Origin: an uncultured Pseudomonadota bacterium
GTDB taxonomy: Bacteria; Pseudomonadota; Gammaproteobacteria; Steroidobacterales; Steroidobacteraceae
Length of the DNA: 64,000 bases
Reading direction: 5' to 3'
Assembly: GCA_937920275.1 (NCBI GenBank)
Contig: CALGVD010000136.1
Span: forward strand, 1 to 64,000
The stretch's first letter is position 1, and each line of letters starts with the position of its first letter. Below are positions 58,165 to 64,000 of this stretch, one piece after another. The notes beneath the pieces are model-generated. The model ran no database searches and was not told the DNA's origin. It was given only the letters and a program-made list of their open reading frames with translations. Made by a program: the position numbers and the translations under genes.

Positions 58165-58854
58165 TCAGGCGATGACGGTCTCGATCGAGCCGAGACCCTC
58201 GATGCCGCAAGAGATCCGGTCTTGGCGGAGCACGCGGCCGACGCCCGCCGGGGTGCCCGTGTAGATGAGATCACCCGCACGCAGTTCGTAGAGACCCGAC
58301 AGCGCTGCGATCACATCGGGCACCGCCCAGATGAGGCCGGCGAGATCGGCGTCCTGGCGTACCGCGCCGTTCACGCAGAGCCAGATACGACCCCGCGTCG
58401 GGTGACCGACCGCCGACACTGGGTGCAGCGGTCCGAGCGTCGCCGAGTGGTCGAAACCCTTCGCCGCGTCCCAGGGTTTACCCTGGGCTTTCGCTTCGGC
58501 TTGCAGGTCGCGACGGGTCCAATCGATGCCGATGCCGTAACCGAAGATGCACGCTGGCGCGGCGGCTGCGGGGATGTCGCGTCCGCCGCCGCCGAGCGCC
58601 ACCACGAGTTCCACCTCGTGATGGAAATCCGCGGTGGCGGAGGGGTAGGGCACCGCCGTTGTTTCAGGGTGCAACGCATCCGCCGGTTTACCGAAGAAGA
58701 ACGGCGCCTCGCGTTCCGGGTCGTGGCCCATCTCGCGTGCGTGCGCCGCGTAGTTGCGACCGACGCAGTAGATGCGCCGCACCGGGAACAGCGTATCGCT
58801 GCCTGCGATACGGGCCGTCACCGGCGGCGGCGCATCGAAGGCGTAGGCGGTCAC
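58165..58854 (-). CDS. Fumarylacetoacetate hydrolase family protein
   Basis: IYCVGRNYAAHAREMGHDPEREAPFFFGKPADAL; FHHEVELVVALGGGG; DLIYTGTPAGVGRV. Confidence 0.9.
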   Translation of the reverse strand: MTAYAFDAPPPVTARIAGSDTLFPVRRIYCVGRNYAAHAREMGHDPEREAPFFFGKPADALHPETTAVPYPSATADFHHEVELVVALGGGGRDIPAAAAPACIFGYGIGIDWTRRDLQAEAKAQGKPWDAAKGFDHSATLGPLHPVSAVGHPTRGRIWLCVNGAVRQDADLAGLIWAVPDVIAALSGLYELRAGDLIYTGTPAGVGRVLRQDRISCGIEGLGSIETVIA

Positions 58855-60917
58855 TGGTCGCCGAGTTCCTTGAGCAGCGCCGGTGCGTCATACACCTTGC
58901 GCAGCGCCTCGCGCATGATGGCCGGGTGCACGGAAACGGCGCGGTTCTTCACGGTGTCGAACCAGAACGATCCCGAGATCGAGTGGATGTTGCCGTCGAA
59001 GATCAGTCCGACCACTTCGCCGCGGGCATTGAGCAGCGGGCTTCCGGAGTTGCCGCCGATGATGTCGTTGTTCGAGGTGAGGTTGAACGGCGTCGACAGA
59101 TCGAGCGTCCCACGCGCCCGCTCCCACGAGGCCGGGACGCTGAACGGCGGCTGGCCGGTGGCGCGTTCGAAGGCGCGTCCGAGGCGGGTGAAAGGCTCCA
59201 CGGGGCTGCCTTTCTCGACCCAGCCCTGCACCGTGCCGTAGTTGAGCCGTAGCGTGAAAGTGGCATCCGGGTAGACCTCGGTGCCGTAGACCTTGAAGCG
59301 CGCGCGGGCGATCTTCTCCTCGGCAGCGGCGGTCGGCGCCTGCACTTCGTCCTCGTATCGCTTGCGCAGCGCACGCGCCGGGCCGTCGATCTCGCGGGCG
59401 AGTTTGATCATCGGATCATCCGAGGCGGCGATCGCCGCGGCGCCACCGTTCCACAGCGCCAGGCGCACAGCGGGATCGGCGAGCTTGCTGCCGTCGACGA
59501 GCGAGGCGGCGAGGCTGTCCGGTGAATCCTTGGCGAGCAGCTTGCGCACCACCGCGTGGTCGGGACCCAGCCACTCGCGCATGCGTTCGAAGCCGAAGGA
59601 CATCGTCAACCGCTCCACCTCCGGATAGACGGGGGTCGCGGCCGCGAGCTGCTGCTGGACCCGCGGCAGTTGCGCATCGGTGAACTCCCGCAGGCGCTCG
59701 CCGTTCGGCTTCGTGCGCTCCTCGGCGCCGCGTACCAGCGTGCGTGCGACGCGGAACAGACGGCTCTGGAAGCCCGCTCCGCCCTCGAGATAGCCGAGTT
59801 CGGTATCGATGTCGCGGGCGCGGGCGTTGGCGGCGGCGATGTCAGCCCAGGGATCGCCGAAGCCAGCGAAGGCAGGATCGGCGGCGACACGGGCGCGCAG
59901 CTCCGCTTCCTTCGCGCGCTTGTCATCCATCATGCCTTCGTCGAGCAAGGCGTCGAGCTGCTTGCGACGCACCTTGATGCCGTTCTCAAGACCGAACAGC
60001 GTGTCCGCCGTGATGCGTCGCTCGGCATCACCCTTCTTTGCGAACTCGATGTAGCGGCCGCGAAGTTCGCTGCTGCGCAGCAGCGAAGGCGGCAGTTCAT
60101 CGTTGCGCAGCGCCAGCAGTTGATCGACCGTCAGCAGGCGGTCGGTGGAGCCGGGATGGCCCGAGACGAGCACCAACTCGCCGGCTTTCGGGCCGTCGAA
60201 GTTGATGCGCAGCGGCCTCGCCACCGTCACCGGCTTGCCGTTCTCGTAGGCGCGCAGCAGGCCCATGTCGAGGCACCAGCGCGGGAACTGGAAGTTGTCC
60301 GGGTCGCCGCCGAAGGCCGCGATGCCCGTCTCGGGTGCGAACACCAGACGCACATCGGTGTAGCGCTTGTAGCGGTAGAGGAACTGCTGGCCGCCGTTGT
60401 AGAGCGCGACGCCCTGGCACTTGAGTCCGGTGGTCTTCTCGCAGGCCTGTTCGAGGCCGGTGATGGCACGCTTGCGGGCCTCGTTGGCGGTGCGCTCGTC
60501 GAGTCCGCGCGTGGCGGCCTCGACCTTGTCCGTCACGTTCTCCATGCCGACGAGCACATCGGCGACCTGCGTGCGGCAGGCGATCTCTTCACCGCGGTTG
60601 CGGGCGACGAAGCCGTCGTCGAGCAGGCTCTTTTCTTTGGAGGAGTTCTCCGAGAGGCAGGCGGTGATGCAGTGGTGGTTGGTGAGGATCAGCCCCTCGG
60701 GCGACACGAACGAGGCAGAGCAGCCCGAGAGGCGGACGGAGGCTTCGCGTACCCGGTCGAGCCAGGCGCCATCGACGGTCACCCCGTACTGCTCTTTCAC
60801 CTTCGCAGTGGGGAAGTTGTCGTAGGTCCACATGCCTTCGTCGGCGTGGGCGGCGGTGGCGGTGAGCAGCGCGGCAGTGAGCGCGACGGCAGTCGAGAGG
60901 AGGGCGGCGCGAGGCAT
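58851..60917 (-). CDS. S46 family serine peptidase (DPP7/DPP11-like), exported
   Basis: DEGMWTYDNFPTAKVKEQYGV; SGCSASFVSPEGLILTNHHC; NDIIGGNSGSPLLNARGEVVGLIFDGN; signal peptide; GGAG before ATG 60917. Confidence 0.93.
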   Translation of the reverse strand: MPRAALLSTAVALTAALLTATAAHADEGMWTYDNFPTAKVKEQYGVTVDGAWLDRVREASVRLSGCSASFVSPEGLILTNHHCITACLSENSSKEKSLLDDGFVARNRGEEIACRTQVADVLVGMENVTDKVEAATRGLDERTANEARKRAITGLEQACEKTTGLKCQGVALYNGGQQFLYRYKRYTDVRLVFAPETGIAAFGGDPDNFQFPRWCLDMGLLRAYENGKPVTVARPLRINFDGPKAGELVLVSGHPGSTDRLLTVDQLLALRNDELPPSLLRSSELRGRYIEFAKKGDAERRITADTLFGLENGIKVRRKQLDALLDEGMMDDKRAKEAELRARVAADPAFAGFGDPWADIAAANARARDIDTELGYLEGGAGFQSRLFRVARTLVRGAEERTKPNGERLREFTDAQLPRVQQQLAAATPVYPEVERLTMSFGFERMREWLGPDHAVVRKLLAKDSPDSLAASLVDGSKLADPAVRLALWNGGAAAIAASDDPMIKLAREIDGPARALRKRYEDEVQAPTAAAEEKIARARFKVYGTEVYPDATFTLRLNYGTVQGWVEKGSPVEPFTRLGRAFERATGQPPFSVPASWERARGTLDLSTPFNLTSNNDIIGGNSGSPLLNARGEVVGLIFDGNIHSISGSFWFDTVKNRAVSVHPAIMREALRKVYDAPALLKELGDQ

Positions 60918-61114
60918 CGGAGGCTCCATGGATCCAGGGTTCGATGGGTCTGATTCTAGAGCAGCCGGGCCATTTCTGCTTCGTTCGTCGAGATTCGATG
61001 CAACGGCTCGAGTATCGGTGAAAACGCCGAGTTTTGGTGCCTGACCTCTGGGCTGTCCTGCGGTGCAATGGCCGCGCCGGGAAGTGACCGGCGACTATCC
61101 AAGGAGACATCCAG

Positions 61115-61366
61115 ATGATCAGACAGACACGCCGGCGCATCGCCGGCCAAGGGATGACGGAGTACATCATCATCGTCGCATTGGTCGCCATCGCGGCCAT
61201 CGGTGTGTACTCGGCTTTCGGCGACATCGTCCGCGGACAAGCGTCCGTGGCCGCTGTCGCATTGTCGGGCGAGGACAACACCGCCGGCCGTGGACTGGTC
61301 GGGGCTGCCCGCGCTCGCGCGAACATCGAGGCACGCCAGCGCACGATGGAGGATTTCGAGGAATGA
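61115..61366 (+). CDS. Flp-type (type IVb) prepilin-like protein
   Basis: MIRQTRRRIAGQGMTEYIIIVALVAIAAIGVYSAF: G/XXXXEY processing motif (G/QGMTEY) plus hydrophobic stretch; AAGGAGA SD. Confidence 0.75.
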   Translation: MIRQTRRRIAGQGMTEYIIIVALVAIAAIGVYSAFGDIVRGQASVAAVALSGEDNTAGRGLVGAARARANIEARQRTMEDFEE

Positions 61367-62697
61367 GGCGGCGTGCGCGCTTCCCACGCGGGCAGGTGCT
61401 GGTGTTCCTGCTGCCGTTGCTGGCTGTGCTCGGGGCGGCGGCTTGGTGGGCATTCGAGGCCGGCCAGGCGGTGACAGAGAAGCAACGCCTGCGCGACGCC
61501 GCCGAAGCGGCAGCGCTCAGCGGTGCGGTGTGGCAAGCGCGCTCGCTCAATTTCGCAGCGGCAATGAACCGGGCGGTCATCGCTAACGAAGCGGTGATCG
61601 CCCAGTCCGTCAGCCTGCGTTCGTGGTCGGACTATATGAACCGCTTGCTGCCGACGGCATCGGCGCTGACCGCCTATGTGCCATACCTCAATGCGGCGAC
61701 CGCAACCCTGCAGCGTTGGTGGTCCGGGTTTGATTCCGTCCTGCAGCCGTCTTTGCGCGGCCTCGAGGGCCTCTCCAGCGGGGTCAGCCACTCTTTGGCC
61801 GCCGCGCAGCGGTTCATGATGTCGGCAACGCTCTTGACGGTGCCACAGATCGTTCGCGACACCGTCGAGTCGACCGATCCGCGGTTTCGATTGACGGAGG
61901 GTGGTGAGGCGCAGCTGCTCGCATGGGCGGCCCAATGGCAGAACTTCAGTTCCTTCTATGGCGGTTCATGGCGCTGGCGCCAACAAGATGTCCTGCTGCG
62001 TTCGCTCGATGGCTTCACCCACGAGCGCAACTTCACTCTGAGTCCCTTGCTCGGCAGTCGTCTGGTGCGTTTCGAGAAGCGCGCCGGGACCGATCTGCTC
62101 GATTTCGAGACCTGGCGTGCGCTCGATACGCTCTCTCTCCACCAGCCGCGCTATGTCATCTTCGGGTCGATGCGCGAGCGTGCCGCGATCGCGTGGGGCG
62201 GCGCTGACAACGGCGTCGGCAGCACGCTGCGTGGCCGGCATGGCGACGCGTTGCGGCGAAATCCACGGGCTGCGCGGGCTGCCGAACGGAGCATCAGCCG
62301 ACAGCGGGGCTATCGCGGTTTGCCGTCGCTCTACGATCTCTCTGCTGCGCAGCGCGCGGAGTCCGCCCCGCCTCGCGTGGTGGTGCGGTTACGGCTGCCC
62401 GCCCAGTCGCGGCGTGGTGCCGCCGAACTGCTGGGGTTCGGTTCTGTGCTGCGCGGTGCGGGTGACACGGTCGCGCTGGCCCCAGAGCGGTCCAACGGGT
62501 CAGGCGATCTGTTCGCCGAGGCCGCCGCCTCGACGCGGTTCCTCCGCCTCGAACCCCGTCGTGATGGCGCACAGGAGACGCCCAGTCTCTATTCGCCTTA
62601 CTGGCGCTCGACGCTGGCGCCTCTTTCGATCCCCGATCGCATGCTGCTCGCCACCGTCGATGGCACACCCGTATGGATGGCCGGGGTGCCGCGATGA
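61363..62697 (+). CDS. TadG-like pilus assembly/membrane-anchored protein
   Basis: RGQVLVFLLPLLAVLGAAAWWAFEAGQAVTEKQRLRDAAEAAALSGAVWQARSLNFAAAMNRAVIANEAVIAQ; ATGA overlap with the prepilin gene. Confidence 0.6.
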   Translation: MRRRARFPRGQVLVFLLPLLAVLGAAAWWAFEAGQAVTEKQRLRDAAEAAALSGAVWQARSLNFAAAMNRAVIANEAVIAQSVSLRSWSDYMNRLLPTASALTAYVPYLNAATATLQRWWSGFDSVLQPSLRGLEGLSSGVSHSLAAAQRFMMSATLLTVPQIVRDTVESTDPRFRLTEGGEAQLLAWAAQWQNFSSFYGGSWRWRQQDVLLRSLDGFTHERNFTLSPLLGSRLVRFEKRAGTDLLDFETWRALDTLSLHQPRYVIFGSMRERAAIAWGGADNGVGSTLRGRHGDALRRNPRAARAAERSISRQRGYRGLPSLYDLSAAQRAESAPPRVVVRLRLPAQSRRGAAELLGFGSVLRGAGDTVALAPERSNGSGDLFAEAAASTRFLRLEPRRDGAQETPSLYSPYWRSTLAPLSIPDRMLLATVDGTPVWMAGVPR

Positions 62698-63377
62698 TGT
62701 CGCGGCAGTCAGCCCGTGGCCAAGCCTTGACCGAGACGCTGGTGGCGATCCTGCTGCTCGCGCCGCTCTTGATCGCGACGATCGATCTGTGGCAACGACA
62801 GACTGCAATCCAGTCCGTCCAGTCCTCCGCCCGTGCCGGCGTATTGGCGGCCCATCATGGCGTTGATATCGACGCTTACGCCGCCCGACCCGACGGGCGG
62901 GTCCGCGGATCCGAAGTGACGGTCATCGCTGCGGCGCAACCCTCGGCCGCACGGACCACGGAGGATTGGGCGTTCGGGCTGTTGCTGCCCGCCCAAGTGA
63001 TCGGCGTCGGGCAGTTCGACCTCGCACGAGACCAGGCCAGGAATGCGCGATCGACGGCGCGTCTCAACGAGGGACCCGCGCTGCAGTGGCTGCGTGCCGG
63101 ACGGTCACCGACCTTTCAGGCGGAGCTTTCGATCCTCGTCGATGACTGGCAGGCCGACGATGCTGAAACGGTACGGCGCCGGACGGCGGCACTTTCAAGC
63201 GCCGGTCGCCTCGCGGCGTGGCGGACTCCTTTGGAAATCATGGCGGCACCGATGCGTCTCTTTGAGCCCGCCGTCGCTCGACTTTGTCTCGGCCGGATAG
63301 ACCCCGATATCGTGCCGACCGATCGACTGACCGGAAGCCGTCGTGGCATGTCCGATCTGAGGACACAGCCGTGTTGA
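62694..63377 (+). CDS. TadE-like minor pseudopilin
   Basis: SARGQALTETLVAILLLAPLLIATIDLW: G/XXXXE motif plus hydrophobic segment; ATGA overlap. Confidence 0.55.
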   Translation: MMSRQSARGQALTETLVAILLLAPLLIATIDLWQRQTAIQSVQSSARAGVLAAHHGVDIDAYAARPDGRVRGSEVTVIAAAQPSAARTTEDWAFGLLLPAQVIGVGQFDLARDQARNARSTARLNEGPALQWLRAGRSPTFQAELSILVDDWQADDAETVRRRTAALSSAGRLAAWRTPLEIMAAPMRLFEPAVARLCLGRIDPDIVPTDRLTGSRRGMSDLRTQPC

Positions 63378-64000
63378 GGCTGCTTCTCGCCGGCCTACGA
63401 CTCGGGTGCCTCGTTTTGGCGGCCCACAGCTTGCAGCTCATCAGCGTGGCTGACGCGGGGCTCGAGTCGGATCGGGCAACCCCTAGGCCGCGATGGGTGG
63501 TCGATCGGGTGCGGGTCAACGGTGTCCCGCTCGAGACGCGCGCGACGGCTGTCGCGGCGGACCGTGCAGTCCTCACCGAGCGCCTCTCGACACTCTGGGG
63601 AAAGACTGCGCACCGTCTCGATATCACAGGCTCGTCAACGCCGTCACCGGCGTCGTTGACGCTGCAACAAGACGCCGAGCGGACGGTGATCGGTCGGCAA
63701 CGCGGCCGATTGCACGAGGTCATCAGCCTGCGCGATGCCCCCTCGGGCGGCACGAGCATCGTGGTCTCGGTATCCGATCTTTCCCGCCCTGCGGCCAAAC
63801 TTCCGCGCTTGCCCTTCCGTCCGCCGTACGGTCTTCGCGCCGTCACCGTGATCGAGCAGGAAGCCCCGGGCGGCGCGACGACGATTGTGCTCGACAGCCC
63901 AGATGCTCACGAGATCACCGCGTCGCGACTAAGAAAAGCCCTACAGGCGGCTGGCTGGGTCGTTCGTACCGATCCCTCTGCCCGCGCGTTATGGGCCGAT
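63371..64000 (+). CDS. Unknown exported protein (partial, runs off window)
   Basis: GTG 63371, open to base 64000: MLRLLLAGLRLGCLVLAAHSLQLISVADAGLESDRATPRPRWVVDRVRVNGVPLETRATA...; absent from the ORF track because no stop in the window. Confidence 0.65.
   Translation, partial: MLRLLLAGLRLGCLVLAAHSLQLISVADAGLESDRATPRPRWVVDRVRVNGVPLETRATAVAADRAVLTERLSTLWGKTAHRLDITGSSTPSPASLTLQQDAERTVIGRQRGRLHEVISLRDAPSGGTSIVVSVSDLSRPAAKLPRLPFRPPYGLRAVTVIEQEAPGGATTIVLDSPDAHEITASRLRKALQAAGWVVRTDPSARALWAD

Follow-up and report, generated by a model that had tools for sequence, protein, structure and literature searches.

Genes at the edge of a Steroidobacteraceae sequence window as the probable 5' part of a complete Tad (type IVc) pilus operon

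The type locus of the Tad pilus, that of Aggregatibacter, has the gene order flp-tadV-rcpCAB-tadZABCDEFG. In the treatment of ATPase architecture by PMC12019362, the class III CpaF proteins bear an FHA domain (FHA-IDR-ATPase) and are mostly betaproteobacterial. An FHA domain is also fused to the TadA-type ATPase of the Myxococcus Kil system, which has no TadG and a short secretin without the N0 domain (PMC8460266). In addition, a DUF192 gene has already been noted in the tad operon of Bulleidia (PMC12786226), the only report we found that joins DUF192 to Tad.

Here we compare these systems with a group of genes at the right-hand edge of the window, the whole 64,000-base stretch that was analyzed. 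The window comprises the first 64,000 bases of a 154,644-base contig, with which its sequence joins exactly and whose numbering it shares. The edge genes very probably form the 5' end of a complete operon (C136:61115-71120) for a Tad (Flp, type IVc) pilus of the FHA-TadA type. The assignment to the Tad pili rests on the ATPase, whose FHA-bearing architecture is that published for class III CpaF.

Gene content and order of the operon

Four plus-strand genes with overlapping starts and stops occupy positions 61115-64087, the last of them extending 87 bases past the window edge (Table 1). The earlier note had described their products as a Flp pilin, a TadG-like protein, a TadE-like protein and an exported protein that it could place in no family; this description was borne out. 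The flp product has the prepilin motif G/QGMTEY. The profile searches that the note had proposed recovered the Tad domain in the second gene (PF13400, 28.8 bits, above the cut-off), together with a weak match to the NCBIfam model tadE_like_DECH, whereas the Pfam Flp_Fap match of the first gene was sub-threshold (10.2 bits) and the third gene had no Pfam match. Homologues of the third gene were syntenic in relatives, with E-values from 1e-5 to 1e-126, and by its motif and synteny only it would encode a TadE minor pilin.

Two features that had been singled out as odd appear ordinary. The TadG-like protein has F, not E, at position +5, which fits a normal Tad domain. A missing E5 is unremarkable in PF13400 proteins, and E5 is not expected of TadG. 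The title of Tomich et al. (2006), as listed in PMC12075869, gives Flp1, TadE and TadF as TadV substrates, with TadG not among them. As for the long C-terminal tail of Flp, its layout is common to the relatives and to betaproteobacteria, and flp was found in the same position, with a comparable tail, in 12 relatives and in about 17 beta- and gammaproteobacterial Tad loci. The tail is normal for the clade.

Table 1. Genes of the locus, in contig (and window) numbering, with the evidence for each.
Gene or product	Coordinates	Strand	Evidence
flp, type IVc (Flp) major prepilin, 83 aa	61115-61366	+	Leader MIRQTRRRIAG / QGMTEYIIIVALVAIAAIGVYSAFG; C-tail ends RTMEDFEE; sequence, synteny
tadG-like minor pilin, 444 aa, N-terminal Tad domain	61363-62697	+	PF13400; synteny in relatives
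tadE-like pseudopilin 1, 234 aa	62673-63377	+	RG/QALTET cleavage motif, E at +5; sequence, synteny
ORF4, exported, 238 aa, N-terminal signal/TM helix	63371-64087 (stop outside window)	+	Sequence, conservation, models
CpaB	64293-65207	+	TIGR03177, 142.9 bits
CpaC/RcpA secretin	65204-66688	+	PF00263, 123 bits; N-terminal domain PF13629, 44.2 bits
FHA-TadA	66685-68319	+	T2SSE PF00437, 210.9 bits; FHA PF00498, 37.3 bits (residues 24-87)
TadB	68316-69167	+	PF00482 (T2SSF), 58.7 bits
TadC	69164-70033	+	PF00482 (T2SSF), 61.3 bits
DUF192-TadE fusion (second tadE)	70038-71120	+	DUF192 PF02643; TadE PF07811

The observation that no tadA, tadB, tadC or rcpA precedes the edge holds within the window, but the same contig carries the secretin, tadA, tadB and tadC just beyond it. 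From CpaB to DUF192-TadE the genes lie on one strand with ends that mostly overlap or touch, and the run is closed by a MobA-like transferase gene in the opposite orientation. The gene order over 61115-71120 is flp-tadG-tadE1-ORF4-cpaB-cpaC-(FHA)tadA-tadB-tadC-(DUF192)tadE2. The RcpA/CpaC secretin and RcpC/CpaB pair is present (PF16976, 78.1 bits, besides the PF00263 and TIGR03177 matches in Table 1), as are TadE/TadG minor pilins, by PF13400 in the second gene and PF07811 in the last. The best NCBIfam match of FHA-TadA was TIGR03819, at 322.8 bits against a cut-off of 373. RcpB, TadD and TadF were not recognised in the locus, nor was there a gene for TadZ/CpaE; the TadZ_N profile PF16968 matched neither this genome nor any control genome and was therefore uninformative. 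Promoter and terminator scans performed no better than on shuffled sequences.

Upstream of flp and divergently transcribed, a gene at 58851-60929 on the minus strand encodes a 692-aa exported protein with a GNSGSP motif, which by eye looks like an S46-type peptidase.

The four edge genes are not chance reading frames. All of them kept their order in 12 of 14 loci fetched from relatives (10 of the same genus, two of the same family), the remaining two being cut by contig ends, with E-values down to 1e-274. Wherever the relatives' contigs were long enough, the whole order from flp to DUF192-tadE was kept, and this identical order argues against misassembly of the downstream part. The FHA part was not detected in two loci from another genus of the family. 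Profiles built from the fetched loci recovered the same order in most of a further set of loci (L030-L048), with taxa including Pseudomonas, Acidithiobacillus, Telluria, Rugamonas, Paraburkholderia, Quisquiliibacterium and Hydrogenophaga; ORF4 matches there were weaker (1e-3 to 1e-15), and DUF192 had no match in the Acidithiobacillus and Hydrogenophaga loci. Within the genus every gene of the operon is preserved, and a drifted form of it recurs in beta- and gammaproteobacteria. In a TadA tree, the protein from this genome fell in a 29-row clade (SH-aLRT 97) that was nearly all Pseudomonadota, with one myxococcal MAG.

The locus shares the core machine and the minor pilins with that of Aggregatibacter, from which it differs in having no recognised tadV, rcpB, tadD or tadF, in the FHA domain on its ATPase, in its gene order and in the addition of DUF192 and ORF4. 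With class III CpaF Tad loci it has in common Flp, TadG, TadE, CpaB, CpaC, FHA-TadA with the domain at the N-terminus, TadB and TadC, in an order seen in many beta- and gammaproteobacterial loci. It differs from them in having no tadV and in ORF4 and DUF192-TadE, which we did not find described in PMC12019362, insofar as that source deals with ATPase architecture.

Prepilin processing

The earlier note was correct that the locus has no tadV; there is no peptidase among the operon genes. The genome had one A24 peptidase match, on a contig other than that of the Tad locus, in a PilD-like ORF of 289 aa that is followed by the gene for dephospho-CoA kinase (coaE). The combination pilD-coaE is a usual gene pair. 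A peptidase match was likewise found in 20 of 21 further genomes with the operon, always on another contig than Tad where the two could be compared (that is, excepting G155 and G157). One same-genus genome that is 100% complete (G007) had the Tad operon and no A24 prepilin peptidase match, which would represent either a gap in the assembly or an enzyme too divergent to be matched.

By their ATPases, three type IV filament systems are encoded in the genome: a T2SS (GspE 677 bits, GspF 466 bits), a second GspE/PilB-like system and Tad. The second GspE/PilB-like locus (L124, G000:C99:1-10869) matched GspE with 257.9 bits, far below the cut-off.

The missing tadV does not disqualify the locus as Tad, because tadV may sit apart from the locus and peptidases can be shared between systems (PMC6668835). 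Since the single A24 match lies elsewhere in the genome and such sharing is known, the prepilins are probably cut by a shared housekeeping enzyme of the PilD type. The assembly is 99.75% complete; as it is in 137 contigs, a second peptidase could be missing from the data.

ORF4 and the DUF192-TadE fusion

ORF4 lies between tadE and cpaB, a position kept in most beta- and gammaproteobacterial FHA-TadA loci, and was present in 15 of 148 related genomes, this one included. The full protein had no sequence relative in Pfam, NCBIfam or the PDB, in agreement with the earlier description of it as exported and of unrecognised family. The part inside the window had no Pfam match, and searches with the family against the PDB and Pfam gave nothing usable. 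An AlphaFold model of a betaproteobacterial homologue (pLDDT 85, pTM 0.70) predicted two tandem beta-beta-alpha-beta-beta-beta-beta domains; the window part, in which the second domain is incomplete, gave pLDDT 77. These models rest on 11-12 sequences, the homologues from the fetched genome loci having been left out. The two halves align with one another weakly (hhalign E 2e-4, probability 45%).

Among the better PDB matches of the homologue model were TplEi (E 6.3e-4), DcrB, PsbP and EagT6, with TM-scores of at most 0.46. The truncated window model matched SciW/DcrB best (E 0.03-0.04) and also PA1624, with no match below E 0.02, and BFVD gave no confident match. We take TplEi, DcrB, PsbP and EagT6/SciW to have Mog1p/PsbP-like folds. 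Based on structure only and at low TM-scores, the ORF4 domains likely have this fold too. The domain fold predicted for ORF4 would be that of these proteins, of which TplEi likewise has two domains, but no sequence similarity to them was detected and their gene contexts and functions are different. We found no literature joining Mog1/PsbP folds to Tad. From its position next to cpaB, we infer that ORF4 is a periplasmic two-domain accessory or adaptor, serving either the CpaB-CpaC conduit or the minor pilins.

In the last gene of the operon, a DUF192 domain (37.8 bits against a cut-off of 27) is N-terminal to a TadE pseudopilin, and an intact prepilin cleavage site follows it (L006:10039-11121). 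A sequence search of the fusion against the PDB returned nothing. The two parts are in one frame in this genome, three same-genus relatives, one other genus of the family and loci L036, L040, L043 and L044, the fusion recurring in Oxalobacteraceae, a Rhodocyclaceae MAG and the other genus of the family. Outside these cases DUF192 and TadE are neighboring genes. In Bulleidia extructa, DUF192 is likewise at the 3' end of the tad operon, but as a separate gene and in a monoderm host (PMC12786226). Since every fused case has a G/xxxxE motif after its DUF192 domain, this domain is expected on the cytoplasmic side of the pseudopilin, from which cleavage would free it. An internal start may be used in L044, where the stop-free frame is long, and in part this applies also to the present genome, where an ATG immediately precedes the motif.

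Of 80 Tad loci (1.36 Mb), 34 had a DUF192 match close to tadA. Most genomes checked had only two DUF192 copies, of which one belonged to the Tad locus and the other lay elsewhere. The motif C-x-x-[IV]-H was present in 42 of 44 Tad-linked copies (L006, L029-L122), and absent from the 12 readable unlinked copies (from L134, L137-L152), which have WMKNT instead; the unlinked copy in this genome has a signal-peptide-like N-terminus. The Tad profile was trained on the genus, which biases the copies that it recovers. Judged on these motifs, the Tad-linked DUF192 proteins of different phyla seem to form a subfamily specific to Tad.

Alternative readings and the proposed machine

The earlier note had envisaged a truncated machine, divergent or minimal, that would be without most assembly parts. 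The locus does have no tadV and no recognised RcpB, TadD or TadF, but the ATPase, both platform proteins, secretin, CpaB and minor pilins are contiguous, the genes downstream of the edge continuing on the same contig and strand as far as the second TadE, and a PilD-type peptidase exists in the genome. A complete canonical tad locus immediately downstream, which the note itself had named as evidence against its reading, was looked for and found, since the remaining Tad genes follow the edge on the same contig. Of the parts it had proposed to seek there, the TadA ATPase, TadB/C and secretin were located, whereas a prepilin peptidase is absent from the locus. The contig right of the window rules this reading out, and we consider it extremely improbable. 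It is also very unlikely that the operon works as a secretion device of the Tad type and not as an adhesive pilus, ORF4 then being a substrate or adaptor. The ORF4 models resemble EagT6/SciW and TplEi, besides DcrB and PsbP, and Eag chaperones share the predicted fold; however, the fold matches are weak and spread over unrelated functions, and a major Flp pilin is present. Eag chaperones are, moreover, cytoplasmic, whereas ORF4 looks exported.

A predation apparatus like Kil would account for the FHA-ATPase fusion, which the two have in common along with a Tad-type ATPase and platform and a probable outside prepilin peptidase for the major pilin (PMC8460266, PMC12075869). Neither TadG nor the secretin N0 domain occurs in Kil (PMC8460266), whereas a TadG-like protein and the secretin N-terminal domain PF13629 are found here, and the Myxococcaceae FHA-TadA rows fell outside the TadA clade of this genome. 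Membership in Kil was rejected on the TadG-like protein and the PF13629 match, leaving this reading exceedingly unlikely.

As a complete Tad operon of the FHA-TadA type, the locus would produce a pilus, with the FHA domain presumably exerting control. Flp would be the pilus subunit, and TadG and the two TadE proteins would probably be tip or initiating minor pilins. A hexamer of FHA-TadA would drive the TadB/TadC platform, and the CpaC secretin, together with CpaB, would provide the exit for the pilus. The prepilins would most likely be cut by the single PilD-type peptidase encoded elsewhere, ORF4 would assist the conduit or minor pilins from the periplasm, and DUF192 would be a cytoplasmic accessory set free on TadE2 processing.

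The locus itself is ordinary; ORF4 and DUF192 are two widespread helper proteins without an assigned function. A broader joint interpretation, which we offer tentatively and rate somewhat below even, is that the C-x-x-[IV]-H DUF192 is a general and so far overlooked cytoplasmic Tad component across phyla, in several lineages an oversized TadE leader that is freed by the prepilin peptidase and couples processing to a cytoplasmic signal or enzyme, and that ORF4 adds a new Tad component, periplasmic and Mog1/PsbP-like. Both proteins travel with the FHA-type machine and may matter to Tad pilus research. For DUF192 the association with Tad loci extends over many phyla and includes the fusion to a pseudopilin.
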